From a virus: a DNA stretch of 20,545 bases. Positions within the stretch are counted from its first letter, which is position 1. Each line of letters starts with the position of its first letter. The notes below the pieces were generated by a model. It searched no databases. It saw only the letters and a list, made by a program, of their open reading frames with translations, and was not told the origin of the DNA. A program made the position numbers and the translations under genes. Shown here in pieces: positions 1 through 19,219 of this stretch. The stretch lies in the IMG/VR virus record IMGVR_UViG_3300009507_000171, positions 1 through 20,545 of that record; one strand, written 5' to 3'.

Positions 1-3000
1 AGGCTGGTTATCGTAAAAGAAACTATCGTAAGTTCTATTGTCGTATCCGGTATTATTATTTTCTAAATCATACAATGCACTTGATAGCTGTATTGTACCG
101 TTTTGTCTGCCAATAGTATCAAAATTGATAGTATAATCTTCAGTAACTTCGTTTGCTACCTTTCTAAGCAATAACCATCCGCCTGTACCAATATTATTAA
201 TTTTAACAATTTCACCTATATTGATTTGATTAGTTTGTAGTTCATAACTTTCGTCAAATGTATAATTTATTTTTGTAAATTCGTTATATCCAGAGGCATA
301 CCAGTTTTCAAAGTCCCAGAAGATAGATGTATCAAACTCTTGTACTTGATACCTAAACCATTCTTTATTTTCGCCTAAACGATATATTGACCATTTGTTA
401 TATACACTGTTATCAGAATTAATTAAAACACTAAAAGGTCTTACACTAATAGTTGTAGCTTCGGTGTAACCTTTGCCAGGATCAATTACATCAATATCAG
501 TAACTTGACCTAAATTGTTTATTGTTATTTCAATTTGTGCATCTTCACCTACTCCATTAATAGTATATGACGGAGCAACTTTATAACCTCTGCCAGAATC
601 TTCGATTTCAATTCTAGTAATCTTGCCGTTTGTAACTATCGGAGTAAGTTTAGCAGGAGTAACTTTTGAAATACCAACAAACTGTAATTCATCTAATGTA
701 TCAATAGCAGTATCATATAAGTTTTCTGTTACTGACGGCGGTTCCTGTTTGCTAGAAAGATCACTAATATCATAAAGGTCAATAATAATGTTTTGTTTTA
801 AAACTAAATTAACTCTTTCAATTACTTGCTTTAATGCTTCTTCTCTATTAACAAACATACTCTGTCTAGGAGTAAATCTATTTCCATAACGATACTTAGG
901 ACTTATGTTAATATCAGGAACAACTTGTAGGTTTTCGTCATATCCTATTAGACTATCAAACCATTTGCGCTCAATATTAGAGTTTAATTTATCAGACTCT
1001 AATCCTTCGCTCATAATTTGATATTGTGTATGAGAATTTTGTTCTACATTTGGGCCTGAAAGCCACTGAATGTTTAATACTACATCATTATCATTTATAA
1101 AACTTTTGCAATTGTGTATTGCAAATTTATTAGATCCTAATAGACTTACAAAACGATATCCACTAGCTGCTGGATCTTTTATTAATCCAGCAACATCAGC
1201 AGCAGAAATTTTTCTGTTTGGTATGCTCGGCACTACTACCTTGTTTCTTACCCAGAAGAAGAATTTTGGAATAAATGTTCCAGTAGTAGCTTCATATTTT
1301 GTCTTAGAAACATATGTTGCATCGCCATATAAACTTACACCGCTGATTTGTTGTCTTAATCCTTCTTCGGAGTCGGCTAGTTGATCCCATTCGCTAGGTA
1401 ATTTATCACTTTCGACCCATTCATAAACATCAATAGTAGTTGCAGGAACAATTTTATTAAAATTATTAACCTGTCTTGTGATTTCACTTTGGTAAGGATA
1501 TAACACTCTTGATTGGCCAATATCCCACCATAACTGACCTACTTGTGCTTCGCCCCAAGTTTTATCAGGAGAATAATAAGTAAGATCTGAACTTAAATTA
1601 TATGATGCTGGATCATATGGTGTTTTAAATGATAGTTCTTGCTCAGCAGGTCCTGCAATTTTTCCTTGTACAGGATCAATATAATCAAGATATGTTAATA
1701 AGTTGTTAGTTCTTTTATTGTAAAGAAACACACCTTTTATTTTTTCTATATCTACAGGAGTAATTGCACTTCTAACAATGTTCCACGACTGTTTTTGAGG
1801 GTTTTTTACATAATCAATAATCGAACCTTCATAATTATCAGTAATTTCTATATTGGGCATACCTATATAAATGTGATTGCTTTGTAAAAATAGATTTTCT
1901 CCTACGAAGAACAAGTTAGGACTTAGTAAGAAGCTATCGTTTTCTAGATATTCAATGCCGTTATCTACTGGATCTTGTCTAGATAATGTTTCTGCATATA
2001 GATATTTTCCATTAACATCTTCAAATACATATATTGCACCACTATCGTAATTTACATTGTTAAATGTAGTAAATGCACCATCAAACGTAGTTTCGTTTCC
2101 GCTATTTTCATCAAAAGAAGTGATATTTTCTAAATCACCATTTAAGCTTGTTATTACTACTCTATTATTATCTGAAACAACAGTATATCCAAACTTTTCA
2201 GTTTGTTCATTTCTAGGGCTGTACAATGTTTGTACATGTGCAAATTTTCCATTTTGTTGTTTATACACATACACTTCACCTTGATCTAATTTCTTAGTAT
2301 CACTCCACGGTTCTGAAACTATTACTGTCATTCCGTCTGGACTTATGCTTATGCTATGTCCATACCCTGTGTTTGTTTCGTTGGAGTTAGTTCTAAGTAT
2401 TTGATCAAGATAGAATTTATCCTTAACACTTCTGTAAATTAAAACAACTACTTCGGGAGAACTGTCTGATGATAATACACAATTTGCTACTAGTACATCA
2501 CCATTTTTATTAACATCAAAAGACTTTGCAAACTGTAGTATATTAGTACTTGGATTGAAAATAGCTTCGTCTCTAGCATCTCTTTCAAGGGTCCAATTCG
2601 TTCTTGTAAATCCTCTACTAGAAGTATCGCTCGAAGGTGTAATATCTCTAGCAGCACTATAAACACTGTTTTCCCAAATTACTAATTCGCCTTGTAGGTA
2701 AGATCGGTCTTGATCAAACATATCAAAATCAAAATATGCAACACCAGTATCATTAGGCAAATAACCAATATAATCTACGCCGTCGGTTATTAAACTCCAT
2801 TCAGAAGATTTAAAATCCTTACCTGATGCAATGTTTGTTTTTGCTCTATAAAGTCGTTGATTTGAACTATCTACTCCGATTTCACTAACAATGTTACCTT
2901 CAAAGTATGGATAATTTTTATCAAACGCTCCTCTATAATTTTCATCAATATTATATTTGAAACTTATATCATTCCAGTATTCTGGAGATCTAACACTTAT

Positions 3001-6000
3001 AAATTCGACATCTGAACTAGGAACAAATGTTTTAGCTTGATAATAAAGTCCTAAATTTTCTACAATATCGCCTGTATTGTATTGTGCATCTTGATTCCAT
3101 TTTCCTTTAAACGATTCTAGATCACTATCTTTAATACCATGCTCAATAATTTCAATATTTCCGCTATTGCCAAAAGTAGTATTACCTCTAGCACTTACAA
3201 ATATTTTATAATATCTCTCACCAGTTTTTGCTACAGAAATTTTATTTCCGAAACCTCTTCCATTATCTCTATCTTGAGAAACAATAGATTTAACATATTG
3301 GAAAGTATTATTAGAATCTTTACGATATATTGATAATGCTCCGCCGTCATATGTATCTGTACCAAATTCATCTACATTTACATTATAAACTTGATTATAA
3401 TCTTTATTTGCACTATCAGGATAATTTGCTGATCTTGATTCCCCTATAATTACTTGCTTTTGTATTAACCAATATTCTTCATCAACAATTTCTGGATTAT
3501 CAACTAAATCAAAATCTTCAGGGGTTTCTAAAACAAGCAGCTTGCCTATTCCAAAATTGCCGTTGATTGAGACATTGTTTTCTTGTAAATCTAAGATGCC
3601 TGTGTCTCTATTAACTTCTCCTGGACGCACAACAATACCTTCCGGATTTGTATAATTGCCCCTGCGTGTAATTTCGTATTTAGAAATTGTGGCGCCAGCT
3701 AACCCCCAATTACCTGATATGTTTCTAATATATACCCTAACATTATTAAATTCTCTTTTGTACCATAGAACTTCTGCAACACTAGTTGTGAAAGTATTTA
3801 AAGAAAGGCCGCCGAATTCATCAACTGGTGTTTGCTTATCAGTGATAATATCTCCGTAACCGTTGTCTGTAATATTTCCAGCAAGATCAATTTGATAGCG
3901 AGGAGTTAATTCAAACGGATTGCCTGAGAAATCAAACTCGCTAAAGGTAAAATCAATAAATCCGTCCCATATATATTTTACTGGAAATTCTGAATTTATA
4001 TATTCTTTACTTTTAAACCCAGCTGAAGCAAAGTCTATTAGATTATCTTCTGTATCAATAAATCTAACATTTACAAGATTGTCAATTTGTGTATCGTTAT
4101 AGTCGTCACTTGCTCTAATTACTAGTAAATTAGATCTATACGTTCCTGAGACATCAAAAGGGTTACCTTGATAAGTTAAACTGAATGCTTGTGATGCCTG
4201 ATTCCTAACTCCTGTATAAGTTCCAACATTACTAGCTAGGGTGCTAGAGTTAGTATAGTTATTTGGATCTCTAGTATCTTCTGCAAGGATAAAGTCTTGG
4301 AATACTAACCCTTTGCCTGTATCATACCAAACATCACCATTATCATATTCAGGAACATTTAAAAGTAAGAATCCACCAAGTGAATCTAAAAAGTTTTCTG
4401 TTCTTTCAATACTATAAGGTCCTATCAAGACTTCGTCTGCATTTCTAAACAGATTACCTGTTAAGTCAAACTCACCGTTTTGATCTTTGGCATAAATTAC
4501 TAATCCTTCTTCAAGTGACTTTGTATAAACGACAGTTGCAGAACCAGTTAGTGTTGATATTATATCTCCATTTTGCGGAATACTAACATAGGGCCTAACT
4601 ACGAATACTTGATCGAATTTTTCTTGTACTTCGAAACTACCACTTATATCACTCGATGACGAAGTAGTTGAACCCTGCCACGGCGGATTAGATATTTCAT
4701 TACCATGAGATATACTTACTTCGTTATATTGTAAAACTATTTTGTCTCCTGCTCCGTACTCTGCCCTTGTTTTAGCTCCCAAGTATGTTAATTTCGGAAC
4801 TCTTACTAAGATGTGATCTGTATCAGTAATATTAGGTAGTCCAGGATTGCCTGTTAATAGCAATGTAATTAAAGTGCTATCACTGTCTTCTTCTTGATTA
4901 ATATCGTAATAACTATTATAACTTGAGAAAGGTTGTGCATCAATTGCCGGTATAATTTCTCTAGTTGCTTTCCACAACGATTCTTTATATTTGACTATAT
5001 CGTTTTTCTCATATGATTGAGTATCGACAAAATCACCTTTATATCTTGTAGGAATATTTGTTGCACTAGGAGTACTAACAAACATATACTCACCGTCGGG
5101 ACTCAATTCAACTGCATAGCCAAAATCAAGTTCGGCACTATCGCTAGACGAAAGTTCTCGAGGTGGTAATATCTCTTCTTCTAGCTTCCAGTTATATGTG
5201 TCGTTATTTCTTCTATAGACAAACGCTTTACCGTTGAAATATCCCGGCACACCTGTAGCAAGAGTTTTATTATTTTCTGTTACACTTAAATTTTTACCAA
5301 AGAAATGGTCTGTACTATCTTCAATATTTGGATTTGAAATTTGACTTATAAACCCAAATACTCTACTATTTTCTATTACTGCCCAGTTATCGTCATAACT
5401 ATCAATCCATAGTCGTTGATTTTCTGATTTATACTGCTGTAATAATTCGTTTCCTTTAGTAACATCTGGAACTCTAACATCCCTTAATAATATTATAGGA
5501 AGATTTAAAATAGTTTCATGATCAAGATCTAATTCTTCAGGTATCGGCCTGTTGTAAGGTATTTCAATAACTAATTCATTTCTTGTTACTTCGATAATTT
5601 TATAAAACGCAGGAAGATTTCTTGTATCGCCATTAACAACACCGATATAATCTCCTACATTAAAATATTCCTGAGGCCAACGATTTAAAATTAAACTTAT
5701 TTGTGCAGGTGATTGTGTTTCTGAAACTCCTGGTCTTATCTCAAAAACGCCGTCGATTTTATATGCGGTGTCGGTAAGTTGCAGCACTGACCAATTTCTG
5801 TTTTCGTCATTTACTACCCAAACGTAATCATCTTTTAATAAACGATTACTGTTAAGCCTGTTTAGATCACTTTTTCGTGTAACTCTAAATTTAACTTCTT
5901 CGTCTAGAACATAACCTGAAGTTTTAATATATTCTTCGTCTATTATTTTTGTCGGTAAAGGATTACTATCATAATCTTCTGGCTTTTCGTAAATTTGATG

Positions 6001-9000
6001 AGGTAACTGTCTATAAACTAAATCAGTGTTCGATGCTTCGGGCAAATTATATACTAGTTCTACAGGCTGTGGCTCTAGTCGATATTGCTCTTCATTTAAA
6101 ACAACTTCAAGTTCTGATATCTTATTTGTTGCTCCATATCTTCCTACTTCTATTGCCCAGTCTTCATAGAAATCTATACTATCTTTATCAGCACTGTTTA
6201 ATGCATCAAATAACTTGTCTATTGCATTTCTAGTACCTTTATCTGCTATCATGCCTTGATAAAATTTATATTGGCTAACATCGTCGTTGATAATATTAGA
6301 CAAATAGTTTCTACTTTGATATCCTATCAAGTGCTGCGCTAATTTCTGCTGTTCTGTATCAAAGTTGTCACTGTCTAAATCATAAAAATCTGCAAACTGC
6401 CCAATTCTATAATCAAAGTTAGTTTGTAATCTGTTTTCTGGTACTTCGTTAATACTCTGCCAATCTTTAGAATTAAAGACTTCCGAACCGGTGACTTTGT
6501 CAATTGCTATATAATAAAATTCTTTATACTTTACTAAACTTCCAATACCAAAGTCTTTCCATGGTTCCCATAATACAACTTTTGCATCGTCATAAACAAA
6601 TCCAGGAGCGTTTAATGTTCCATCCCACTCATCGGATCTATAACCAACAACTTTAATTCTGTCTTGCTTATATCCACTAAATGGTTGGTATAAAATATCA
6701 TTAAAAGAAGTCCTATTATCCAATAATACAACATGTTCTTTTTGTACAATAGGAAGACTGATATGATACAGCCCTTCGTCAGTGTTTGCAAGTCTAATAC
6801 CAAACGAGTTGTCTTTTCTCTCAACACGATTAAAATCTACAGATATTTGACGACCGTCAGCATTTAAAGTTAAACCGTAGTCATAGAAAAAGTTAGATAG
6901 ATTATCTACAGTAACAAAATCTCTTTGGAACTTGATATATTCAGCACTTGGACTAATAGTTAGTGCAGTACCTTCTGCCCAATTCTGTGTTGTCCAAAAT
7001 AAGAATTCTTTTGCAGACTGTACCCAGTTATTAACATATCCTGAATCAATATCAAACTCTTCAAATTCAAACCCTACAGATTTAAGATATTCACCGTAAC
7101 CTAATATAAAATCTACAACTTCTTGCGAGGTTTGGATTATTGTACCGTAAGTGAGTTTTTTAATTTCTCTTTTGTTAAAGGATTTTCTGAGTTGAGCACG
7201 TTTGCCGCCTTCTACAGGAATTTCCGGTAGTATAGCTAAATTTTCTGTAGAAAACACATCTCCCGAAGTAAAATTATTAGTAACTCTATAAAAGTCATTT
7301 CCAATATTAACAATAATACCCTTTGTATATCGTTTATTTGCACGCCATTCTACAAAATTCTCACTTACACCTCCAACTACTATAGTAGGATCTTGTGACT
7401 TTTGTATTGATTCAAAATATTTAAAGAACGGTGATTCAAAGTTATAACCACGAAGAATAAACCCTGCATTAGCCTTTTCAATTACAATACCACTGTAATT
7501 AACTTTTTCTAAAGGAGCACTTGTATTAAGAACTATCTTATAATTTTCTTCAGGAACAAAAACATTTCCTTCATTATAAGGAGTTCTAGAATCTAATAAT
7601 AGTTTTAATTTAGACTTTTCAGTAAAGCCGCCTAATTTAAATCCTAATTGATTTTTGATTAATTTAACTTCGTCTATATAATTTTCATATACTTTAGTTA
7701 CATATCCGCTGATATAATTATAAAGAAAATTCACTAGCCCACTTGTTAATATTCGTTTGTCGTCAGTGTATGTATTTGGAAATACTAGATCTTTTAATTC
7801 TAATTGTTTTCCACTTTCACTATATATTAGTTGTCCAGACAAGTTTCTAGAAATTCTAGAAACATCAAAGCCAATTCCAAATATTTTAGAAGGTTGATTT
7901 AACAAATAGCTTGTGATGAGAGCAAATGGATATTCTGAACTATTTTTCCAAGCAGTTTCAACAGGTGCATGATCGCCGAATGCAAACCTCTGTCTTGTAT
8001 AACTTGCAATATAATTTTTAGCAAAGCTGCTAGCTAAAGGACTAAGCAATTTACCTTGAGCATCGACCGGTATATGATTAGTTAATCCGTCTCTGGCATA
8101 TTTAAGCAACCTAATAACAGGCTTGTTAGGTTCTCTAATAATACCTTCTTCAAGATCTTCCCATAAAATTAAATTGTTTCTTGTATATGGTGCCGGACCA
8201 TAAACATCATTCCACCATGTAGGTTTGATGGGAAATCCTAGCATTTCCCAAGGATGTGTATGCGGACGGTCAGTATCATAAGCCTGTTTATAAACAGCTC
8301 TCCAGTAACCTGGCAAAACTTCATCATTTGGGCCGCTCATATTAGAATAATTAAACGTAAATTGATCCGATCTTTCGTAGAAACTGTTATCGGTATAATC
8401 ACTTTCAACTAGCTGTTGCCACTGAGTAAAATCAGTTAAAACAGATGAATCTATATCTTGTTTTGTAAAACCTGTATTTCTAAAATATCCGCCGACATAA
8501 TCATTTATATCAAAAATATTTGTATTATACGATTGCTTAATATTATTATAAATTCTTCTTTCAAATTCTAAAATTAAGTCGTCTCTATAATCATTAAATG
8601 CTAATGTTCTACTACCATCATGACCCTGAATTATTTTTACAGGCTCTCTATAGGTATCGTCTAAATAAATTTCTGGCTCGTATGCAGGATATAGCCCCAA
8701 CTTAGTCGGAGTAGGAGGTACAAAATTTCCGTCTGTTGATTCATATTCGTATATTTCAATTACATCGCCTGGAGCTTTGTCAGCTATGATTAAACTAAAT
8801 CCGTCATCGGTAAAACTATAATCTGTATTATATGTTAGCTGGGTGCCGTTAAGATATACTAAGACAGCACGCTGAGATAATTCTTTATTAGTATATGTTT
8901 GTGATATTGCATAAAAAGGATTATCACTGTCTAAAACTTCGTATTCTAATTTTTTCGAAGGGCCAAAAGGTGCCATATCGGAAAAATAAAACGGCATCTG

Positions 9001-11820
9001 AGGAACTTTGTCTTTGTTAATTTCTTGTAATATAGAATCTAAATGATCTTTGATAGGACCACTGAATTTAGAATTAGTAGATTCTGCTATTAATTGACGT
9101 TTAAATTTAGAATACTCTCTTTTTGTATAACGTATTGCCTTTATTATATTAAAGTTTTGATTAATAGTATGATACATCGGAAGGTTCAAAGATCCAGAAT
9201 GCTTTACAAATTTTCTTCCAAATACATCTAAGTCACCGAGGTCTCTTAAATTACTATTACCAGGATATACACCATCAAAACTTGATATTTCTGGTATCAT
9301 TGATTCAACATGATCAATAACTTCGCCCAGAGTAAATGTTTCAATATTTTCATTTAACGGATTTCTTTCAAGGTTATGTGGAAACTCGTAATATCCGTTA
9401 TTATTTTTTGCTACTGCACTTGTTGTTTTTATTACAACTTTTTTATTCTCTGCTAAAGGCTTATAAAATCTCACAAACGCAACGTTGTTTATTCGGTCAA
9501 TTTCATAATCTTTTAATCTTATTTGAAATTCATTATCTATATATACAACAACTTTAAGATCAGTTAAGTCTCCTGAACGATTATAAACATCAATTTCAAA
9601 GAAATTATTTAAATCTTCACTCGAAATATATTCTTTAACTACATACTGTTTAGATTTAATAGGCGCACTTGACCATCCATTAACATAATTGAATGTATCT
9701 CTATCTTCGTATTTTCTTAAATTTGCAGTATCAGTTCTAACAGTAATTACATCTGTTTCAGTTTGAACTGTAAAAAAGTCAGTTAAAAGATTAAACTCAA
9801 ATTCAATGTCGCCGCTATTTTCAATATTTCTATAATTTAAAGGAAATCCTAATTCTTCGTCATTAAGCCCGTCGCCTTTTTTATAAGAAAATAGTTTTGT
9901 TCCTTGAAATGTACTACTATCAAAAATATTAAGGTCGGCGTAGAGATTTCCGTTTGGACAACAAAGATCAAACAACGGTTCTTGATTATTTGTTTCTTTT
10001 GCTTGTCCTATCTTCCATTCGTTATCATTATAAAACCAGCTCGAACCTGCAAATTTTTCGCCCTGTGTTACTAGGACTGTTTCTAGATCTAATGGATCAG
10101 TGTCTTCTTCTTCAATTAAACTTATTTGTCGTTGGGCGGCGGTTTGTACTGTTATAAAATTAACTTTGTAAATTTTGTTTTTTACAAGAACATCTGTATC
10201 AGCAGTAAATAAGATTCGCATACCTTGTGTAATATCAATACCGTCGATATTATAACCAATACTTCCTTCAATTGTACTAAACACGTCTGTTGTAAAATTG
10301 TCAATTAAATCAATATCTTTTTTAGCAAATGTACCAAAGTTATAAAGTTTTAAACCTGCTTCAAATTCAATGATAGGTCTTTTAGCTCTAGCATCTTGAT
10401 CAATTTCAGGCAAAATGTCATTAATTAATGCACTTTCTTCTATTACATCTCTATGGAACCATCTATTATATCTTGCCCAAGCATTTCTATCCTTACTGGC
10501 ACGATTAGAAACTATATAATCTTTTGTTTTAGGATAGCTACTTGAATTTCCAAAAGGCAATCTATCAAACCCTTGACTATCAAATGGTACTAATAAATTA
10601 TCTGCATAAGCTGCTGGAATAATCAAGTTTCTTTCTGAAACTAGTTTAATTTTATCACCGACGCCTTCAACATACCATTCATTTTCTGCATAAACATCAG
10701 GAGTTACTAAACCTTGAAAATGTACTTTCATTCCGTTAGATAATGTGATGCCATTTTCACTTGTATAAGTTTTTTTACCTAGTATTTCGTTTTCTACATC
10801 AATTGCTGTATTTTCTTCAATATCGTAAATGCGCATTTGTCCGCTAGTATTCACATCATTTTTTGAAATATAATATAAATTATTAGGAGCATTCATAGGA
10901 ATAGTAAATTCAATAGTACCTTTTTCAAGATACATTGTCGCTACTTGTTCGCCTTCTTCACCTAACTTTCTTATACCATCCGGATATAACTCACTTACAT
11001 TTTCGTCATCTTCAAATGTTACGGTGCCGTTTGATGGTAAGATAATAAAATCGCCGATGTCATAGCTTACACCCTGTTCGTCATAGAGGGTTGCATCAAA
11101 TAATCCTTCTCCTTGAAGTCCTTCAGATCCAGCAGTAAGAATAGCTGATCCTGGCGTAAAGCTTCTACTAACTGCAAATGCAATAGGATGTCCCGGAACA
11201 TCTACTTCAAAGCGATAAGTTTGTCCTCTGTATAGTTTTAATGTGGGATTTCTAGTAAATCCGTTAGGTGTAAAAACATATGCAAAGTTATTATCGTCTT
11301 CAACAACTTCAATAGTATATGTACTTTCAACTTCTAAATTTTGTCCTCTAATATCAATTGTACTAGGACCATTTGGCAACCAATAATATTCACGGAAATT
11401 TACAAACTTATCCCAGTCAATATTAGGATTCCATGCATAACTTTCTTGACTGTTTAATCTGCTGTGGTCATCAACATTAGCACCGAAGGTACTTAATTGA
11501 TTTATGTAATCGTTATAGTCAGCATAAAAATTAACATTATCTAATTCGTCTTTAATTACCGCTGCTGGCTCAAACTGGTAATCTTTTCTATTTTTTGAAA
11601 TATCGCCTATATAATAATCATTAGCAGGATTGTAAGCTTTGGCTGTAGTTCTCCCTATATAACCAGAAAGTTTTTCAGCGACACCATTTTGTATTAACTG
11701 ATCAACAGTTGCTTGTAGGAAATTAACATTCGCAGTTGTTCTAAAAAATTTCGGAAGTAAATTAGAAGATTTTCTTTTATTATTACCAGGTGTTGGCGGT
11801 ACTAAATCATTTTGAGCCAT
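1..11820 (-). CDS. Giant virion structural protein, gp7-position baseplate/tail protein, 3' end outside window
   Basis: The frame starts at ATG 11820-11818 and I read all 3,940 codons to the window edge without meeting a stop, so the product exceeds about 430 kDa. The start shares its A with the gp6 stop (TAATG) and has GGAGG 12 bases upstream. Visible parts by residue: 1-55, a wedge-like start (LLPKFFRTTANVNFLQATV); 185-333, a cupredoxin-like beta domain; 1181-1220, motifs RPHTHPWEMLGF and APYTRNNLILWEDLEEG; 1830-1900, HLIGYQSRNYL, FYQGMIADKGT and FYEDWAIEVGRYG; 2167-3351, seven FG-GAP-like propeller units with two insertions; 3731-3793, two GxGY repeats. Four CBM5/12-like motifs are scattered at 1492-3062. 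No signal peptide or membrane segment is seen. Position after spike, gp25 and gp6 suggests the gp7/P2 I/Afp12 role (wedge to fibre connection), but T4 gp7 is about 1,030 residues and I cannot show homology. A fused wedge-plus-fibre protein is an alternative. Confidence 0.85.
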   Translation of the reverse strand, partial: MAQNDLVPPTPGNNKRKSSNLLPKFFRTTANVNFLQATVDQLIQNGVAEKLSGYIGRTTAKAYNPANDYYIGDISKNRKDYQFEPAAVIKDELDNVNFYADYNDYINQLSTFGANVDDHSRLNSQESYAWNPNIDWDKFVNFREYYWLPNGPSTIDIRGQNLEVESTYTIEVVEDDNNFAYVFTPNGFTRNPTLKLYRGQTYRFEVDVPGHPIAFAVSRSFTPGSAILTAGSEGLQGEGLFDATLYDEQGVSYDIGDFIILPSNGTVTFEDDENVSELYPDGIRKLGEEGEQVATMYLEKGTIEFTIPMNAPNNLYYISKNDVNTSGQMRIYDIEENTAIDVENEILGKKTYTSENGITLSNGMKVHFQGLVTPDVYAENEWYVEGVGDKIKLVSERNLIIPAAYADNLLVPFDSQGFDRLPFGNSSSYPKTKDYIVSNRASKDRNAWARYNRWFHRDVIEESALINDILPEIDQDARAKRPIIEFEAGLKLYNFGTFAKKDIDLIDNFTTDVFSTIEGSIGYNIDGIDITQGMRILFTADTDVLVKNKIYKVNFITVQTAAQRQISLIEEEDTDPLDLETVLVTQGEKFAGSSWFYNDNEWKIGQAKETNNQEPLFDLCCPNGNLYADLNIFDSSTFQGTKLFSYKKGDGLNDEELGFPLNYRNIENSGDIEFEFNLLTDFFTVQTETDVITVRTDTANLRKYEDRDTFNYVNGWSSAPIKSKQYVVKEYISSEDLNNFFEIDVYNRSGDLTDLKVVVYIDNEFQIRLKDYEIDRINNVAFVRFYKPLAENKKVVIKTTSAVAKNNNGYYEFPHNLERNPLNENIETFTLGEVIDHVESMIPEISSFDGVYPGNSNLRDLGDLDVFGRKFVKHSGSLNLPMYHTINQNFNIIKAIRYTKREYSKFKRQLIAESTNSKFSGPIKDHLDSILQEINKDKVPQMPFYFSDMAPFGPSKKLEYEVLDSDNPFYAISQTYTNKELSQRAVLVYLNGTQLTYNTDYSFTDDGFSLIIADKAPGDVIEIYEYESTDGNFVPPTPTKLGLYPAYEPEIYLDDTYREPVKIIQGHDGSRTLAFNDYRDDLILEFERRIYNNIKQSYNTNIFDINDYVGGYFRNTGFTKQDIDSSVLTDFTQWQQLVESDYTDNSFYERSDQFTFNYSNMSGPNDEVLPGYWRAVYKQAYDTDRPHTHPWEMLGFPIKPTWWNDVYGPAPYTRNNLILWEDLEEGIIREPNKPVIRLLKYARDGLTNHIPVDAQGKLLSPLASSFAKNYIASYTRQRFAFGDHAPVETAWKNSSEYPFALITSYLLNQPSKIFGIGFDVSRISRNLSGQLIYSESGKQLELKDLVFPNTYTDDKRILTSGLVNFLYNYISGYVTKVYENYIDEVKLIKNQLGFKLGGFTEKSKLKLLLDSRTPYNEGNVFVPEENYKIVLNTSAPLEKVNYSGIVIEKANAGFILRGYNFESPFFKYFESIQKSQDPTIVVGGVSENFVEWRANKRYTKGIIVNIGNDFYRVTNNFTSGDVFSTENLAILPEIPVEGGKRAQLRKSFNKREIKKLTYGTIIQTSQEVVDFILGYGEYLKSVGFEFEEFDIDSGYVNNWVQSAKEFLFWTTQNWAEGTALTISPSAEYIKFQRDFVTVDNLSNFFYDYGLTLNADGRQISVDFNRVERKDNSFGIRLANTDEGLYHISLPIVQKEHVVLLDNRTSFNDILYQPFSGYKQDRIKVVGYRSDEWDGTLNAPGFVYDDAKVVLWEPWKDFGIGSLVKYKEFYYIAIDKVTGSEVFNSKDWQSINEVPENRLQTNFDYRIGQFADFYDLDSDNFDTEQQKLAQHLIGYQSRNYLSNIINDDVSQYKFYQGMIADKGTRNAIDKLFDALNSADKDSIDFYEDWAIEVGRYGATNKISELEVVLNEEQYRLEPQPVELVYNLPEASNTDLVYRQLPHQIYEKPEDYDSNPLPTKIIDEEYIKTSGYVLDEEVKFRVTRKSDLNRLNSNRLLKDDYVWVVNDENRNWSVLQLTDTAYKIDGVFEIRPGVSETQSPAQISLILNRWPQEYFNVGDYIGVVNGDTRNLPAFYKIIEVTRNELVIEIPYNRPIPEELDLDHETILNLPIILLRDVRVPDVTKGNELLQQYKSENQRLWIDSYDDNWAVIENSRVFGFISQISNPNIEDSTDHFFGKNLSVTENNKTLATGVPGYFNGKAFVYRRNNDTYNWKLEEEILPPRELSSSDSAELDFGYAVELSPDGEYMFVSTPSATNIPTRYKGDFVDTQSYEKNDIVKYKESLWKATREIIPAIDAQPFSSYNSYYDINQEEDSDSTLITLLLTGNPGLPNITDTDHILVRVPKLTYLGAKTRAEYGAGDKIVLQYNEVSISHGNEISNPPWQGSTTSSSSDISGSFEVQEKFDQVFVVRPYVSIPQNGDIISTLTGSATVVYTKSLEEGLVIYAKDQNGEFDLTGNLFRNADEVLIGPYSIERTENFLDSLGGFLLLNVPEYDNGDVWYDTGKGLVFQDFILAEDTRDPNNYTNSSTLASNVGTYTGVRNQASQAFSLTYQGNPFDVSGTYRSNLLVIRASDDYNDTQIDNLVNVRFIDTEDNLIDFASAGFKSKEYINSEFPVKYIWDGFIDFTFSEFDFSGNPFELTPRYQIDLAGNITDNGYGDIITDKQTPVDEFGGLSLNTFTTSVAEVLWYKREFNNVRVYIRNISGNWGLAGATISKYEITRRGNYTNPEGIVVRPGEVNRDTGILDLQENNVSINGNFGIGKLLVLETPEDFDLVDNPEIVDEEYWLIQKQVIIGESRSANYPDSANKDYNQVYNVNVDEFGTDTYDGGALSIYRKDSNNTFQYVKSIVSQDRDNGRGFGNKISVAKTGERYYKIFVSARGNTTFGNSGNIEIIEHGIKDSDLESFKGKWNQDAQYNTGDIVENLGLYYQAKTFVPSSDVEFISVRSPEYWNDISFKYNIDENYRGAFDKNYPYFEGNIVSEIGVDSSNQRLYRAKTNIASGKDFKSSEWSLITDGVDYIGYLPNDTGVAYFDFDMFDQDRSYLQGELVIWENSVYSAARDITPSSDTSSRGFTRTNWTLERDARDEAIFNPSTNILQFAKSFDVNKNGDVLVANCVLSSDSSPEVVVLIYRSVKDKFYLDQILRTNSNETNTGYGHSISISPDGMTVIVSEPWSDTKKLDQGEVYVYKQQNGKFAHVQTLYSPRNEQTEKFGYTVVSDNNRVVITSLNGDLENITSFDENSGNETTFDGAFTTFNNVNYDSGAIYVFEDVNGKYLYAETLSRQDPVDNGIEYLENDSFLLSPNLFFVGENLFLQSNHIYIGMPNIEITDNYEGSIIDYVKNPQKQSWNIVRSAITPVDIEKIKGVFLYNKRTNNLLTYLDYIDPVQGKIAGPAEQELSFKTPYDPASYNLSSDLTYYSPDKTWGEAQVGQLWWDIGQSRVLYPYQSEITRQVNNFNKIVPATTIDVYEWVESDKLPSEWDQLADSEEGLRQQISGVSLYGDATYVSKTKYEATTGTFIPKFFFWVRNKVVVPSIPNRKISAADVAGLIKDPAASGYRFVSLLGSNKFAIHNCKSFINDNDVVLNIQWLSGPNVEQNSHTQYQIMSEGLESDKLNSNIERKWFDSLIGYDENLQVVPDINISPKYRYGNRFTPRQSMFVNREEALKQVIERVNLVLKQNIIIDLYDISDLSSKQEPPSVTENLYDTAIDTLDELQFVGISKVTPAKLTPIVTNGKITRIEIEDSGRGYKVAPSYTINGVGEDAQIEITINNLGQVTDIDVIDPGKGYTEATTISVRPFSVLINSDNSVYNKWSIYRLGENKEWFRYQVQEFDTSIFWDFENWYASGYNEFTKINYTFDESYELQTNQINIGEIVKINNIGTGGWLLLRKVANEVTEDYTINFDTIGRQNGTIQLSSALYDLENNNTGYDNRTYDSFFYDNQP
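442..630 (-). repeat. Two-copy GxGY beta repeat (within giant protein)
   Basis: Residues 3731-3793 hold two related segments about 40 residues apart: NGKITRIEIEDSGRGYKVAP and LGQVTDIDVIDPGKGYTEAT. Both have the pattern G.(I/V)T.I.(I/V)...G.GY. This short repeat is typical of extended beta-rich phage tail and fibre proteins. With only two copies it is probably one small domain. Confidence 0.6.
2635..2700 (-). repeat. CBM5/12-like motif, copy 4 (within giant protein)
   Basis: Residues 3041-3062, core YLQGELVIWENSVYSAARDI ending TP, followed downstream by a Trp (RTNWTLER). It lies near the end of the second insertion, just before propeller unit 4. Confidence 0.45.
3019..3099 (-). repeat. CBM5/12-like motif, copy 3 (within giant protein)
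   Basis: Residues 2908-2934, core YNTGDIVENLGLYYQAKTFV preceded by W six residues earlier and followed by a later EYW. This is the best match to the small CBM5/12 pattern W....Y..GD.V...G..Y.A. It follows propeller unit 3 at the start of the second insertion. Confidence 0.5.
4948..5013 (-). repeat. CBM5/12-like motif, copy 2 (within giant protein)
   Basis: Residues 2270-2291, core YEKNDIVKYKESLWKATREI ending IP. It lies immediately after the break in propeller unit 2, at the start of the roughly 567-residue insertion. Confidence 0.45.
7261..7347 (-). repeat. CBM5/12-like motif, copy 1 (within giant protein)
   Basis: Residues 1492-1520 read W....Y..G.IV...G..FYR, with core YTKGIIVNIGNDFYRV. 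This is the aromatic/GD.V/aromatic spacing of small chitin-binding type modules. It is the most divergent copy, with the acidic residue after G replaced by Ile. Confidence 0.35.
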
Positions 11821-14800
11821 TAGTAACTATAGCCTCCGTTGCTATTAGATGATATATTTGTTGTAGTATTATTTGAACTTTGTACGCCTGTATTTGTACT
11901 TGATACAGAACTTATAACTTTTCCGCTAGATTGTAATTTTGTAGCTGTAATTTCATCAATGATATCAATATCATTTACTGATGCTCCACTAATAAAAATT
12001 TCATCAGCTTCGGATTTTATTTCAAATAAACTTCCAAAAGACTGATCTAACTGTTTAGGAACAATCACTATACTTGCTAGCTTTGGAGCCATTTGATTCA
12101 TTATAAATGTACTCAGTTCTTGGAAGTAAAAAGTATCGCCAAAGTCCCAGTTTTCGCTACTGAAGAATCTATTAATATTTTCAATTACTTGAGATTTAAG
12201 CTCATTATTATTTAATACTAGATCAAGATTTCTAATAATTTTAAATTCAACTTGTAAATCAGGAATAGCTTTCTCTCCAAATAGTACTTTGTACTTAACT
12301 GGATGATATATAACTTCGTCACTAATTGACTTTATTTTGCTGATTTCGCTGCCGTATGTTCTGAACAATAAATCACTACTCGGAGGTAATGGTTTAACTG
12401 GAAGTTCTCCACTTAACCATAGTCTAGTTTGTGAATCATAATTCCTTGTTAAAACATAAGTGTCAATAATATTACTTACACTTGGATCAATTCTTTGATT
12501 ACTATCTGCAACATGTACATACTGGAACTTAAAGTTATCTCTTCCTACAAATGCTTTGTAATCGCTAACAAGTTTAAAACTGTTATTCTGTTTATCTATT
12601 TGTTTAAAAATATCTAATTCAGAAATATAAAAAACTTGCTTATCGTCGTATTGGCTCCATGCGCCAATACTAGACTCGTCTGGAACTGTAAAAATAGTAT
12701 TATTAGAATTGTCAAAGTATGTTAAAGTTTCAACACCTTCTTTGCCAATCGATCTTTTTTGGAATACAAATTTTTGTATTTGATTTACACTCGGTGCGAT
12801 CAATTCTTCAAACAAATCAATGTCATCGACAATTCCGTCATCGTCTGAATCATAAAAGTCTAATTGAACTTTTTTAGTATCTACATATCCGCTTTTATCT
12901 TTATACGAGTCAGTAACAGACCAAGTAAAGTTTCTAGTAAAAGGTTCTAGACTATCAGGCTTATTATTAATAGATAAGATATCTAACTTATCTTTAAGAA
13001 GTTTTCCTGTTTTACTATCGTAAATTTTATCACTGCTGTCATAATAAAAACGAACTTCGTCTTTGCTTTCAAACAGATATCTTAAATTACGATATCTAAT
13101 TTCGTAATTTTCTCCGTTGGTTTTAAAATAAAGTAACCAACTAGAGTCTAAATTTTGTGCATTTATATTTCCAGCTTTGCCTAAATTAAAATTAGAAATT
13201 GTATTAATGTTTTCTTCTAATATAATTTTCCAAGCTCCTTCATTTTGATCAAATCTTAAAGCATAATCGTTATATGCAAATGTCTGATCTATAATCTGTG
13301 ATATAGTATCGTCATTTAAAGTGTTTGATATTACAGGTTTAACTTCTGTAAGAATGCATCCATTAGGAACATTATCGTTTAAGAAGATTGGGCCAACTGG
13401 ATTACTGTTATCAGTACCGTCACGATCTACAGTTACTACACTAGTCCAGATATATGTCTTGCTGCCCACATGATCTGGGGCACCGAGCATTAACTTATTC
13501 CCAGCCATAAAGTGATAACCTTCAGGAGCAATAAATTTTAGCATAGTACCCTTTTTTACAAAACGTAAATTATTAGCAGTAAATGATCCAACTTGATATA
13601 TTGAATTATCTAAATCTGTAAAATACCCAGTATTCTCATTTGTTCCGCTAGTTTTTTGATTCCATGTTGCATTAAGATCTACAGTATTAATCTTAGAATA
13701 ATTTTTATAATAAAAATTCTTAATATTAGGGTTTCTAATAATCGGAAGAATTGTATTATACACAGCACCTTCTATATCAGTCTGAGTTGTAAAGTTAAAT
13801 TTAGCTTTGTCTATAAATTCTTCTCTATATAATATACCGTCATTAGCATATAAATTTGTATTACTATATTTTCCAGTAACATCTCGTAAATCAAAATATC
13901 TTGAAATACCACTAGAAATTCTATTTACAGATTTAACCTTTAAAATATCTTGACTAACTCCTAGAGGTCCGATATTATAATCTTCAGCAGTTACTAATCT
14001 GTTTTGTGTATAATATGTTGCAGGTGCATTTTGTTTAATACTTGCATTTGATTCTGCAGGAGCAGCATTACTTACTGTAGCTTTTAAACTCATTGTAAGT
14101 GTTAAAGTTTCACTAGTATTACTTCTACTCACATAAGGTATTTTAATATTAATATTATTCATACCTTGAGGAGAAATATTTAAAAATCTATTAGCACTTG
14201 TTCTATAATATGTTCTATAATTTCCACTAGGTAAATCGCCAAAAACTCCATCAGCAAATATTAAGTTAATTCTATCTTCTATCCTTGAACTAACTGCATA
14301 AATGTTTCTAATACTTTTTAGCAAACTATTATATATTACATTGTTGCCTTCAACAGCATCAACTTTAGTCCAAAGTTCATTTTCAAATCCGTTTAAATCA
14401 AGACTGTATAACCAAACATCAGAATTATTAATATTTGTACTATCAATGCCAACTATTTGATTTGGTACAGGATTATCAACTTTAAACTCTCCGCGTTCTA
14501 ATTTGCCTTGACGGAAATGCATAAAGAACCCAGTATTGCTACTTCCTGCACCTTGCCCGTCGTCTCTATATAAGAAACTAGGATTGTTAGCAGGTAGCGG
14601 TGGCTCTTCTACAATTTGATTGCCGCTAATTGCAGTTGATACAACTTCAAATTTAGTGCTAACACCTTGTATATTTTTACTAAAGCTATAAACAGGCAAA
14701 CCTGTGTTTAAAGAATTAATTTTATACTGCTCTGTAGGTACTCCATTAATATCTGCGCTCCTCAAAGGCTGGCCAATTGGGTTACTTAATGGTAATGAAT

Positions 14801-15284
14801 TATTTAGAATTTTAATAAATTGTTCAAACCATAATGTATTACTTGGATCATTCCAACTTATTGTAGAACCACTAAGGTTTAATCCTGAACTATCAAAGAT
14901 ATTTTCTGTTGTTTTGATTGATTCAATTTTTAATAATCCGTTTGCTGCTTGATTACGCTTAGGATTATAACTTACTAATCTAGCTAATCGTAAAATGCTT
15001 TCTCTACGCTCTGCTGTTTCAAGAAAGTTTTCACGTGCATTTAGATCAACTCTAAAGCTTAAATTTTGCCCTAGAAATGCGATTAAATCGATAAGTGCAA
15101 CATATTCACTTGTCTCAATATAATCATTAAAGTCTTCTGGATAATTTTCTCTTAGATACTGAATCATAGTTCTACGCAAGTTGTCAAAGTCGTAACTTTG
15201 AAAATCTGCGTTTCTAAAACTTTGATAAATTCTCTTCCAATCTTGATTGATTAGAAGTCTATTCTGCCTATCAGATACTGACAT
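11820..15284 (-). CDS. Baseplate wedge protein, gp6-like (Baseplate_J family), enlarged
   Basis: 1,154 residues; T4 gp6 has about 660. In T4, gp6 dimers form the inner baseplate ring and contact gp25, gp53 and gp7. The N-terminal part matches the family: ALIDLIAFLGQNLSFRVDL followed by ENFLETAERRESILRLARLV (about residues 63-105) and the Baseplate_J signature RLVTAEDYN near residue 430, followed by SVNRISSGISRYFDLRD. Residues 812-823 form an EF-hand-like loop (DSDDDGIVDDID). The C-terminus is a Ser/Asn-rich tail ending GGYSY. The start at 15284 is supported by AAGGA seven bases upstream and a candidate late promoter. The gene follows gp25 by 51 bases and its TAA stop overlaps the giant gene's ATG. 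The extra roughly 500 residues, mostly in the C-terminal half, have no assignment from me. Confidence 0.88.
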   Translation of the reverse strand: MSVSDRQNRLLINQDWKRIYQSFRNADFQSYDFDNLRRTMIQYLRENYPEDFNDYIETSEYVALIDLIAFLGQNLSFRVDLNARENFLETAERRESILRLARLVSYNPKRNQAANGLLKIESIKTTENIFDSSGLNLSGSTISWNDPSNTLWFEQFIKILNNSLPLSNPIGQPLRSADINGVPTEQYKINSLNTGLPVYSFSKNIQGVSTKFEVVSTAISGNQIVEEPPLPANNPSFLYRDDGQGAGSSNTGFFMHFRQGKLERGEFKVDNPVPNQIVGIDSTNINNSDVWLYSLDLNGFENELWTKVDAVEGNNVIYNSLLKSIRNIYAVSSRIEDRINLIFADGVFGDLPSGNYRTYYRTSANRFLNISPQGMNNINIKIPYVSRSNTSETLTLTMSLKATVSNAAPAESNASIKQNAPATYYTQNRLVTAEDYNIGPLGVSQDILKVKSVNRISSGISRYFDLRDVTGKYSNTNLYANDGILYREEFIDKAKFNFTTQTDIEGAVYNTILPIIRNPNIKNFYYKNYSKINTVDLNATWNQKTSGTNENTGYFTDLDNSIYQVGSFTANNLRFVKKGTMLKFIAPEGYHFMAGNKLMLGAPDHVGSKTYIWTSVVTVDRDGTDNSNPVGPIFLNDNVPNGCILTEVKPVISNTLNDDTISQIIDQTFAYNDYALRFDQNEGAWKIILEENINTISNFNLGKAGNINAQNLDSSWLLYFKTNGENYEIRYRNLRYLFESKDEVRFYYDSSDKIYDSKTGKLLKDKLDILSINNKPDSLEPFTRNFTWSVTDSYKDKSGYVDTKKVQLDFYDSDDDGIVDDIDLFEELIAPSVNQIQKFVFQKRSIGKEGVETLTYFDNSNNTIFTVPDESSIGAWSQYDDKQVFYISELDIFKQIDKQNNSFKLVSDYKAFVGRDNFKFQYVHVADSNQRIDPSVSNIIDTYVLTRNYDSQTRLWLSGELPVKPLPPSSDLLFRTYGSEISKIKSISDEVIYHPVKYKVLFGEKAIPDLQVEFKIIRNLDLVLNNNELKSQVIENINRFFSSENWDFGDTFYFQELSTFIMNQMAPKLASIVIVPKQLDQSFGSLFEIKSEADEIFISGASVNDIDIIDEITATKLQSSGKVISSVSSTNTGVQSSNNTTTNISSNSNGGYSY
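11833..11837 (-). promoter_or_regulatory. Ribosome binding site of the giant structural gene
   Basis: GGAGG on the minus strand, 12 bases before ATG 11820-11818 and inside the last codons of the gp6 gene. The spacing is long, and the start overlaps the gp6 stop by one base, so termination-reinitiation coupling probably contributes. Confidence 0.6.
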
Positions 15285-15335: not shown

Positions 15336-15782
15336 TTAATTTAATAGACCAGCTCTTTGGTCAAATCTAAACTGCATAGTTTGTTGTAAATTGTACGGAA
15401 TGAATATTAAATCAGCCTCAACCTGTATTCCGCTTTCGTAGCTATCGACTAAAATTCTAACTGGATTTACCCTAGGATCATAATTTACAATTTTAGTTAC
15501 ATCTTCTAAAATTGCCTGGCGAAGACTTTCTGTAAATGGTTCAAAAAGTGCATCCCAGATAATTGTTCCAAAACTCGGATCACTTAACTTTTCACCTTTT
15601 CTAATATGAAAATGATTAATAATGTCTTGTTTTACAAGTTCAAAATTATAAAGATTATAAGTGTTACTGGTATAATCTGTCGTAGAAAATCCTCTATAAG
15701 CAACTTCATTTTTGCTTAAATCTTCTACCTTAGCTGGCGCTACTGTTACTCTTTTATAGAGGTTTTTTTCTAAATTACTCAT
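15336..15782 (-). CDS. Baseplate wedge / sheath initiator, gp25-like
   Basis: 148 residues from ATG 15782; T4 gp25 has 132. The gp25/GPW family joins the wedge core and nucleates the contractile sheath. Family features: KQDIINHFHIRKGEKLSDPS (51-70), FGTIIWDALFEPFTESLRQA (71-90) and NYDPRVNPVRI (100-110), followed by a beta-rich end. I chose this start over an upstream in-frame ATG at 15824 because it follows the spike stop by eight bases, has AAAGG 11 bases upstream and gives the family length. The longer form would overlap the spike gene by 34 bases and add 14 residues (MVPKWYSGRKVNIT) that look like read-through of its coding end. The gene lies between spike and gp6, as W lies between V and J in P2. 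Confidence 0.93.
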   Translation of the reverse strand: MSNLEKNLYKRVTVAPAKVEDLSKNEVAYRGFSTTDYTSNTYNLYNFELVKQDIINHFHIRKGEKLSDPSFGTIIWDALFEPFTESLRQAILEDVTKIVNYDPRVNPVRILVDSYESGIQVEADLIFIPYNLQQTMQFRFDQRAGLLN

Positions 15783-15790
15783 AGTAATAT

Positions 15791-18103
15791 TTACCTTTCG
15801 CCCTGAATACCACTTTGGAACCAAGCACTTTCATCAGCACGTCTTTCAATAAGTCCTTGCAAAGGTCTGCCGCCTGCATTTACATATAATAACATTTTTT
15901 GCGCAATAGTAGGGTTATCTCTAGTACCATTTTCTGTAACCTGAGACAAGGCTCCTGTACCTAGGTTATATGCAAAGCTAGTAAGAGAATCTATTTGTGC
16001 AGGGGTCCAACTATATCCATTATCTTGACCAAAGCGTTCAACTTCTTGTCTAAATGTTCCGATACTACTAGATAATCTACGTTCAGCTTCTTCTGAAGTA
16101 ATTACTTCAGTTGAACTTGTTGCTCTAGTGCCGTAACCGATACTGTATTGTGCATAATCCCAGAATGCTCTAGCTCTACCATCTGGCAATTCTTCGCCAT
16201 ATCCTTCTTTAGCTTTAATAAATTCAAATAAATCTGACGGAACTTGTCCGGTTGGACCTGATCTTCCTCTAAGTCCATCATCAGGACCTAACGGATCTAC
16301 ACCCGGAGGAGAGGTGGTTGCAGGCGGTGTTGCTGTAACTCTGTCTCCTTGCCCTGCTATGATTCCTCTATTTGCATCGTTAAATGCTCTTGTGTCGCCA
16401 CCTTTACTAAATGTATCTGGAGTTAAAGGTCTAAATGGCGTTTCTGCTAACCCGCCTGGAGATTCTCTATCCGTTTCATGAGTTTTTACAGCCAAAGGAT
16501 TCATATTTTCGTGATGAGCCCAAGGTTCATGTTGCGGTGACCTACAGAGAATACTTTCGTATATTTCAATATTTCCAGATCCGGGAGGAACATAACTAAG
16601 ATTAATTGTTGGTAAATGTACAACTTCTACAGCATCTTCTGGATCTGCTGACGGTCGTGCTAGACCACTGTTAAGGTGTATATCCGGACCTGCGCCGCCG
16701 CCGGCGTCGATCATCACGAGACTTGCTGCTAAATCATTTATATTAGATTCGCTTTCTCTATACCAACTAAATCCGCTAGTTTCGTGAGTCATTTGATCTG
16801 AACGCTGATACCTATTTTTGTTTGTATGGAAATGATAATCGCCTTTTACTAGAACTTTCATTTTGTCTTCAACAACAGTATCTGAAAACTGATGCACAGT
16901 TAGTTTGTAATCTTTACCAACATCAATATTAGTATTAAACACACTCTCTATTTGAATTCTACCGGACTCGTTACCATTAACATCGTTTTGTTGTTCGCCG
17001 CTATATCTAGCAGTAGCTTTCATATTAATATTTCTACCTGCTTCCATATTGATATCACGTTCTGCTGTAATATTAAGGTCAGCTGCTGTCATTATACTAA
17101 TACTATCATCAGCGTGAATATCAATTTTACCATCACTTGTTAATTCTACCCATGCTGTTCCTCGAGAATTAGAAATATAAATCAAATCCTCCGAGTTGTG
17201 TAGTAGTATTTGATGCCCAGTTCTAGTTCTTAGTCTTGTTAATTCGTTGTGAGGTATAGTTTGGTCGCCAGTAACATCACCTGCTTCTACATTTGCATAA
17301 TCTGGAGGACCGTCTTCTGCATGTGTTCTACGAATAAACTTATCGTCTCCGTCGTCAAATACTAAACTAGAACCTCCTAATCTATTATAAAATTGTTCAG
17401 CTTTCGATGTTTGATTTCCGTAAGGATATGTCGGAGCTCCGGGACGTTTATCAAGAGGTCCAGGACTACTAAACCCAAAAACCATACTAGGAATATCTCG
17501 TCTAGCACTACTAGTAGTTGTGCCTCGTATTTCATCTTTGAGCAGACCTTGTGTTTCTAAAACTTGTGTAAAATCTTTATTATATGGCTTTCTAAACTTA
17601 GTAGGATCTTTTCCCTCGCCAGTTTCAACTCTTTTGTTATATTCTCCTACTGGTAATTTAAAATTTCTCAAAGCACTAGGTGTAGCATCAGTTGTTGCTT
17701 TGGTACTAGCTCTGCCATCAGGTAACATAAAGTTCATAAATTGATCTTGAACACACCCTATCCAATAACCCTGTGCAGCATTGTCTTCTAAAAACATAAC
17801 AACTACCTTTGTACCTACATCCGGAGGCACCATCCAAAAGCCATAAGATTTTTGCGTATAATCATACCCATCATTTGGTTGCTCGTGCCGCTGAGGAGTT
17901 GCTCCATAAAAAGGACTTAGATATCTAACTGTGTGTGTTTGGCCAGTTCTTTCTGGATTATTGCCTGTACCTGTATATTTTAAAAGCTCAACTTCTAAAG
18001 TACCCATATAAGTAGTATCTAAATGATTAACTACAATAGCTTCATACGGACCGCCGGCGCCGTGATGACTTCCGTATGCTCCTGTTCTTGTTAATTCATT
18101 CAT
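15791..18103 (-). CDS. Central tail spike with C-terminal lysozyme, gp5-like
   Basis: 770 residues. It should form the trimeric needle that punctures the envelope and digests peptidoglycan. Order: OB-fold at about 17-120, with GTLEVELLKY, the gp5 block SYGFWMVPPDVGTKVVVMFL and AQGYWIGCVQDQFMNFM; linker; beta-helical needle at about 290-430, with short alternating repeats as in ISIMTAADLNITAERDINME; HEPWAHHENMNP at 525-536; Gly/Pro linker 550-620; GH24-type lysozyme at about 624-765. The lysozyme shows FIKAKEGYG (candidate general acid E633), FWDYAQYSIGYGT (D649), LTSFAYNLGTGAL and a GLIERRADE end. In T4 gp5 the lysozyme lies between OB fold and needle; here it follows the needle. E-to-D spacing is 16 residues against 9 in T4 lysozyme, because of the insert GEELPDGRA, and Ser stands where GH24 usually has Thr in TIGYG. 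Activity is likely but unproven. Confidence 0.92.
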   Translation of the reverse strand: MNELTRTGAYGSHHGAGGPYEAIVVNHLDTTYMGTLEVELLKYTGTGNNPERTGQTHTVRYLSPFYGATPQRHEQPNDGYDYTQKSYGFWMVPPDVGTKVVVMFLEDNAAQGYWIGCVQDQFMNFMLPDGRASTKATTDATPSALRNFKLPVGEYNKRVETGEGKDPTKFRKPYNKDFTQVLETQGLLKDEIRGTTTSSARRDIPSMVFGFSSPGPLDKRPGAPTYPYGNQTSKAEQFYNRLGGSSLVFDDGDDKFIRRTHAEDGPPDYANVEAGDVTGDQTIPHNELTRLRTRTGHQILLHNSEDLIYISNSRGTAWVELTSDGKIDIHADDSISIMTAADLNITAERDINMEAGRNINMKATARYSGEQQNDVNGNESGRIQIESVFNTNIDVGKDYKLTVHQFSDTVVEDKMKVLVKGDYHFHTNKNRYQRSDQMTHETSGFSWYRESESNINDLAASLVMIDAGGGAGPDIHLNSGLARPSADPEDAVEVVHLPTINLSYVPPGSGNIEIYESILCRSPQHEPWAHHENMNPLAVKTHETDRESPGGLAETPFRPLTPDTFSKGGDTRAFNDANRGIIAGQGDRVTATPPATTSPPGVDPLGPDDGLRGRSGPTGQVPSDLFEFIKAKEGYGEELPDGRARAFWDYAQYSIGYGTRATSSTEVITSEEAERRLSSSIGTFRQEVERFGQDNGYSWTPAQIDSLTSFAYNLGTGALSQVTENGTRDNPTIAQKMLLYVNAGGRPLQGLIERRADESAWFQSGIQGER
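15794..15798 (-). promoter_or_regulatory. Ribosome binding site deciding the gp25 start
   Basis: AAAGG on the minus strand, 11 bases before ATG 15782-15780. It lies just before the TAA of the upstream spike gene, as in coupled phage genes, and favours the 148-residue form over the one starting at 15824. Confidence 0.5.
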
Positions 18104-19200: not shown

Positions 19201-19219
19201 TATATCATCCCATTATATC
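19198..19219 (-). repeat. Nine-base direct repeat at the hub/345-residue gene junction
   Basis: The minus strand carries GATATAATG twice, separated by GGAT. The first copy encodes the hub C-terminus (Asp-Ile-Met); the second contains the next gene's ATG. GGGA between them (19211-19208) acts as the ribosome site. The two ATGs are in different frames, so they are not alternative starts for one product. Confidence 0.6.

Follow-up and report, generated by a model that had tools for sequence, protein, structure and literature searches.

A seven-bladed FG-GAP propeller interrupted by inserted domains in a giant phage protein encoded beside baseplate wedge genes

Introduction

Can a single beta-propeller close when its seven blades are spread over some 1200 residues and one of them is cut through the middle? 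The question is raised by the virus record IMGVR_UViG_3300009507_000171, a 20.5-kb stretch of DNA (20,545 nucleotides, analysed whole and called the window here) in which every long open reading frame (ORF) lies on the minus strand. Its giant ORF (1..11820, minus strand) keeps at least 3940 codons, the C-terminus being lost at the contig end; it belongs with phrog_10938, a "virion structural protein", and lies directly after a gp6-like baseplate wedge gene. An initial annotation, made from the letters of the DNA, had proposed that seven FG-GAP-like units in this protein form one closed propeller from whose loops two long insertions emerge. The best-known case of a domain inserted into a propeller of the integrin type is alphaI of the animal integrins.

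Our analysis strongly supports this architecture: residues ~2156–3355 very probably make up one closed seven-bladed propeller of the FG-GAP/integrin-alpha type, with the chain leaving the ring at three points. Support for its function is moderate. The fold, the seven-bladed ring, the insertion points, the single origin and the gene order were all obtained by computation.

Results

Seven FG-GAP units in one segment

The propeller segment comprises residues 2156–3355 of the giant ORF, with the units lying within residues 2167–3351. Its FG-GAP character, anticipated by the initial annotation, was recovered by Pfam: FG-GAP_2 (PF14312) scored above its curated cut-off in the window segment (30.9 vs 23 bits, E 3e-7) and was also found in 31 of the 37 segments from relatives, with E down to 1e-16, while the older model PF01839 gave no match in the window. 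A blade profile was then trained on the relatives alone, with the window left out and 200 shuffles of the window segment as the control. Units 1, 2a (the first half of the split unit 2) and 5 scored 18.0, 8.9 and 30.5 bits, respectively, the top shuffle reaching 4.5 bits. Units 3, 4, 6 and 7 of the window are too diverged for this profile and were recognised through alignment to compact relatives and through structure models. FG or YG is present in blades 1, 2, 3, 5 and 6 and the P...G part of the motif in some only, with blades 4 and 7 being degenerate. Sequence searches of the PDB with a compact propeller returned non-significant matches only, and neither the propeller segment nor a compact propeller matched any cultured phage at the limits used.

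The divergence of those four units, and the fact that PF14312 clearly clears its cut-off on one stretch of the window only, would suit an arrangement in which short FG-GAP-like pieces sit in separate beta-sandwich domains and number seven by chance. We regard that arrangement as very improbable and already contradicted, since there are compact relatives with seven consecutive units, both structure models match seven-bladed propellers end to end, and the ends of the half-blades are complementary.

Natural versions of the propeller among relatives

At least 300 related stretches were found in IMG/VR, of which 80 were taken for comparison, and most of these share the blade and insertion arrangement of the window. 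Others carry simpler forms. In the relative L052 and its near copies L050, L055 and L100 the seven units follow one another uninterrupted over ~410 residues, so that L052 is a natural counterpart of the propeller with its insertions removed. The propeller is nearly compact in L056 and L071 as well, and in L084 and L082 insertion 1 is down to ~100 residues, bringing units 2a and 2b close together. Since 2a and 2b form a single blade, unbroken or almost so, in relatives without insertion 1, the two halves in the window belong to one blade. The junction itself is consistent with this: unit 2a of the window covers blade-profile positions 2–24, and in L011 and L012 unit 2a stops, and unit 2b restarts, at position 26–27. 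The proposal that unit 2 is split, with its second half some 567 residues further on, therefore holds.

These relatives also bear on whether the insertions could be a sequencing or assembly artefact in which two genes or repeats were joined. The window is a metagenome contig that ends within the gene, which leaves room for such an error, but dozens of independent contigs, L013 (76% identical), L011 and L012 among them, have the same blade and insertion order in one open frame, and a close relative is also present in a 335-kb contig. We consider an artefact hardly conceivable.

Structure models of a compact and an interrupted propeller

AlphaFold2 models were obtained for the compact L052 propeller (predicted local distance difference test, pLDDT, 84.4; predicted template modelling score, pTM, 0.84) and for window residues 2156–3355 (1200 residues; pLDDT 82.3, pTM 0.75), and in both of them seven blades of four strands each close into a single ring. 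With VIA-align, integrin alpha headpieces rank first for the L052 model, with Z 34.3 to 32 over 345–372 residues. The top matches, 7p2d_A (Z 34.3, 362 residues, 4.6 Å) and 5e6s_C (Z 33.8, 345 residues, 3.2 Å), align from integrin residue 1. The window model matched integrin alphaM (Z 22.4, 355 residues, 3.6 Å) and integrin alpha5 (368 residues, 3.4 Å), as well as 288 of the 293 residues of the seven-bladed WD40 protein WDR61 at 2.7 Å. Its alignments to integrins and WDR61 span model residues 1 to ~1185–1195. Such near-complete coverage of a seven-bladed ring means that the separated halves 2a and 2b must meet in one blade, and the end-to-end alignment with closed propellers is not the picture of separate beta-sandwich domains that the initial annotation had named as its alternative.

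Foldseek on the L052 model placed the WD40 protein G-beta first and integrins lower, the opposite of the VIA-align order; we retain the label integrin-type because of the shared seven-bladed ring together with the FG-GAP signature. Foldseek on the full window model returned mostly multi-propeller proteins (DDB1) with poor template modelling scores, and this result was set aside in favour of VIA-align because the long insertions break the Foldseek alignment.

Blades of the window propeller

All features below are on the minus strand. A strand at residues 2157–2162 (5335..5352) opens the propeller; it is predicted in both models (E2-7 in the window, E10-16 in L052) and aligns with the first integrin alpha residues. 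PMC3192720 describes the N-terminal strand of integrins as the fourth strand of blade 7. By analogy the phage strand probably closes the ring in the same way, its pairing with blade 7 being an expectation. Blade 1 follows at residues 2173–2222 (5155..5304), identified by the blade profile and model strands. Strands a and b of blade 2 (unit 2a) occupy residues 2232–2253 (5062..5127; blade profile, model strands 82-84 and 90-95), and strands c and d (unit 2b), joined to 2a in relatives, resume at residues 2824–2852 (3265..3351; model strands 673-679 and 685-692).

Strands a to c of blade 3 lie at residues 2855–2898 (3127..3258; model strands 702-711, 714-722 and 733-741). Its probable strand d, residues 2950–2963 (2932..2973), ends in YRG and was placed by alignment with L084, L032 and L022, in which it comes directly after strand c. 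Blade 4, residues 3094–3146 (2383..2541), was placed by model strands 939-988 and by a loop, DVNKNG, connecting its strands a and b. This is the sole loop of the window segment that resembles the integrin-type calcium loops (DxDxDG, blades 4/5-7), and none was found in L052, L084, L071 or L056. The loop, whose family consensus is DxSxNG, occupies the calcium-binding position of integrins. Blade 5, residues 3150–3204 (2209..2373), is the blade recognised by Pfam FG-GAP_2 as well as by the profile. Blade 6, residues 3208–3283 (1972..2199; model strands 1055-1124), carries an inserted hairpin, TTFDGAFTTF, and blade 7 ends the ring at residues 3305–3352 (1765..1908; model strands 1154-1183), both being located also with the help of relatives.

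Insertions and their domains

Insertion 1 comprises residues 2254–2823 (~570 residues; 3352..5061) in the b-c loop of blade 2, and is missing in L052 and mostly missing in L084 and L082. It begins with a unit resembling carbohydrate-binding module (CBM) family 5/12 at residues 2260–2300 (4921..5043), which scored 50.4 bits with the family profile and had no shuffle match. The part that follows is beta-rich and gave no match in Pfam, PHROGs or the phage collection.

The initial annotation was right that insertions emerge from loops, although it had recognised two of what are at least three insertion points. What it had read as one insertion of about 201 residues between units 3 and 4 proved to be two separate insertions, one on either side of blade 3 strand d. 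One CBM5/12-like unit, residues 2904–2940 (3001..3111; 40.8 bits, also Pfam PF02839), interrupts the blade 3 c-d hairpin, which runs unbroken in L032, L022 and L065. The linker between blades 3 and 4 contains two, residues 2962–3008 (2797..2937; 34.9 bits) and 3034–3076 (2593..2721; 29.7 bits). Relatives reveal further insertion points in the blade 4 b-c loop (L084) and in blade 5 (L056 and L087). In integrins, the b-c loops and inter-blade linkers are on the face that bears the alphaI domain and ligands, and the c-d hairpin is on the opposite face.

In total, the family or local profile identified six CBM5/12-like units in the giant protein, four within the propeller and two outside it. PF02839 (CBM5/12) scored 31.1 bits on the giant protein against a cut-off of 26.2, and 29.0 bits within the propeller segment. 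The two outer units are at residues 1751–1787 (6460..6570; family profile) and 1491–1527 (7240..7350; Pfam and family profile), the latter in a part common to other jumbo phages; the reference phages with a CBM match (Paride, Atu_ph07, Phosso and SCTP-2) have one unit each, near the place of unit 1491–1527. A PDB search with the conserved N-terminal profiles of the giant protein found the CBM unit only. There is no CBM5/12-like unit in the compact propellers of L050, L051, L052, L055, L056, L069 and L071, and there are two to four in all larger propellers counted. We treat these units as putative glycan binders.

Origin of the propeller

A tree was built on the conserved part of the protein ahead of the propeller. 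The proteins with a propeller are all grouped in a single clade (Shimodaira-Hasegawa-like approximate likelihood ratio test, SH-aLRT, 100), separate from the reference jumbo phages. Compact and short-insert forms cluster together (support 92), the window falls among the large-insert forms, and the compact clade and the large-insert groups join at an unresolved fork. The conserved regions before and after the propeller are homologous to the reference jumbo-phage proteins, and in those examined the propeller site holds other sequence, whose length ranges from ~70 residues (GAP32) to ~1500 (Atu_ph07 and Phosso). Seven of the reference proteins were searched with the blade profile, and no match was obtained. 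Because the clade is fully supported and the reference proteins have no propeller at that place, a single entry is favoured; judged from these sequences, the propeller would most simply be an insertion, gained once, in a larger conserved baseplate protein.

At this site ~1500 residues each of Atu_ph07 (L002 residues 1640–3200) and Phosso (L003 residues 1655–3185) abound in "GYxxxP" repeats and reach no Pfam cut-off, and SCTP-2 has a different sequence of ~410 residues there. The place resembles a general hot spot for insertion. FG-GAP sequences also occur elsewhere in two of these genomes. Sinorhizobium phage Phosso (PV764938.1) has frames of 3182 and 3702 residues full of FG-GAP_2 at 48386-56545 and 60342-68852, far from the wedge gene, and Atu_ph07, although its giant protein is without a propeller, has a separate 409-residue FG-GAP frame at 243045-243821. 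UniProt A0A2L0UZX4 of Atu_ph07, named "hemagglutinin", has a matching fold. The separate Atu_ph07 frame is a possible source of the captured cassette.

Gene neighbourhood and protein family

Ahead of the giant gene in the direction of reading are the gp6-like wedge gene (11820..15284; phrog_10646, phrog_219), a gp25-like wedge gene (15336..15824; PF04965, phrog_261) and a gp5-like hub/lysozyme gene (15791..18103), all on the minus strand. The lysozyme domain of the hub protein is at its C-terminal end, residues 644–758 by Pfam, behind OB and needle-like parts. In an incomplete ORF at 19205-20545, the closing stretch RHDAGYAADVILYDGD...HVDIADG looks M15/VanY-type peptidase-like by eye; Pfam found no match to this ORF at E up to 1.

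In the PHROG search the giant ORF matched phrog_10938 with 1069.7 bits, with homology over the N-terminal 2000 residues, and complete relatives have 4449–5343 residues. Members of phrog_10938 directly follow the gp6-like gene in the PA5oct/Paride, Atu_ph07/Phosso, SCTP-2, RaK2, 121Q and GAP32 jumbo-phage groups, and the gene order of L001-L009 places the giant gene after gp6 as in the window. Propeller-bearing members sit in large genomes with a T4-type portal, namely a 270-kb contig (L052) and a 335-kb contig (L127). Close relatives of the giant gene in L126 (PBPT01000082.1, 153 kb) and L127 (PBPT01000016.1, 335 kb) are both filed in one Neomarinimicrobiota assembly. They are probably phage contigs binned with a bacterium, and their filing is at most a weak hint at the host.

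Discussion

The explanation that we favour is that the nested propeller serves as an exposed adhesion platform of the baseplate, to which, taken as a whole, we assign a probability of roughly 0.65. The propeller would be a cassette that entered, in a single event, a giant wedge-associated protein of the T4-like kind whose gene follows gp25 and gp6. Gene order and family suggest that the conserved parts of this protein fix it in the baseplate wedge, and that the giant protein is located in the virion baseplate is likely. The chain exits at the blade 2 b-c loop (~570 residues), the blade 3 c-d hairpin and the blade 3–4 linker, the extra domains at these exits including four CBM5/12-like units, and returns to complete the propeller. 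Given the variability of the insertions and the parallel with integrins, the propeller may act as an exposed scaffold that presents glycan-binding-like modules to the host surface, so that a phage could gain or swap contact domains while the anchor is left undisturbed. The simplest role would be contact with glycans of the host surface, although we put the chances that host-surface adhesion is the main role at about even.

Several points weigh against this explanation. The models were built on 33–37 sequences, and that of the window shows blade 3 with a poorly formed strand d. CBM5/12-like folds also act as plain spacers in phage fibres, and insertion 1 is without a recognised function. The window contig is a fragment without a host or a complete genome. 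On the supporting side, mass spectrometry of purified virions of the 121Q-like phage phAPEC6 found gp245 (381.9 kDa, 17 peptides), which is encoded next to the wedge protein (PMC7247149), but gp245 is assigned to the giant-protein family by position and size, not by sequence.

The main rival is that the propeller and its insertions are chiefly structural, forming spacers or docking surfaces that join baseplate or fibre proteins without host contact. The giant gene has wedge genes as neighbours, a weak similarity links insertion 2 to tail fibre PHROGs (phrog_9851, E 5e-5), and the integrin propeller also docks the beta subunit (PMC3192720). A conserved interface, however, sits poorly with the way in which the length and position of the insertions vary among close relatives, which is better suited to an exposed, fast-changing surface. 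We see a purely structural role as a serious but less probable option.

A broader evolutionary scenario can be put forward tentatively. Marine jumbo phages of the T4-like kind might, across a large clade, carry an integrin-like adhesion head in the baseplate wedge, its cassette captured once and its loops taking up glycan-binding and other domains at different points lineage by lineage, such that host contact was diversified by insertion into a ring-shaped scaffold and not by swapping the tips of tail fibres. Propellers that are intact, partly filled or fully filled can be compared, and so the growth of a nested protein is directly testable. The propeller is also a candidate host-contact element in jumbo phages without known hosts or receptors. 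A closed, integrin-like ring with its loops opened for extra domains, some of them similar to sugar-binding modules, suggests an evolvable gripping platform within the tail machine.

Comparison with known systems

Among phage proteins, the closest counterparts are the giant phrog_10938 proteins of RaK2/121Q/PA5oct/Atu_ph07-type phages, which have homologous flanks and the same order after gp6 but, in the reference proteins examined, carry the ~70–1500 other residues at the propeller site. The Atu_ph07 "hemagglutinin" and the two long Phosso frames have FG-GAP_2 repeats as well, but are separate genes far from the wedge gene. The six window units match CBM family 5/12 (chitin-binding type 3, e.g., the chitin-binding domain, ChBD, of chitinase A1, 1ed7), and in the propeller such units are repeated as insertions inside another domain.

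Our literature search found no paper that places FG-GAP repeats in the baseplate of a phage. The integrin-type propellers of bacteria (FG-GAP, FG-GAP_2) belong to the same repeat family, but their repeats are uninterrupted; the passages of PMC3192720 consulted describe no insertion of the window type, and the word phage is absent from that paper. Neither the fold nor the principle of inserting a domain into it, which integrins exemplify, is new. What appears undescribed in the literature searched is that several insertions are nested in one propeller, that they differ from relative to relative, and that the whole sits in a baseplate protein of a phage.

The likeness to the N-terminal propeller of integrin alpha extends to the seven blades, the FG-GAP-type motifs, an extra domain emerging from the ring and the best structural matches of both models. 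Nevertheless, on its sequence the giant phage protein is not an integrin. Identity is 10–16%, calcium loops of the DxDxDG type are absent apart from the similar loop in blade 4, and the phage propeller is flanked by a phrog_10938 baseplate protein, whereas the integrin alpha subunit has thigh and calf domains, a transmembrane segment and a beta partner. The integrin alphaI insertion is one domain of the vWA fold between blades 2 and 3, while those of the phage propeller interrupt blades 2 and 3 and the linker from blade 3 to blade 4, and carry CBM5/12-like and unnamed beta domains. Thus, a type of scaffold known from integrin alphaI bears multiple insertions, at different places, in a protein of the phage tail.

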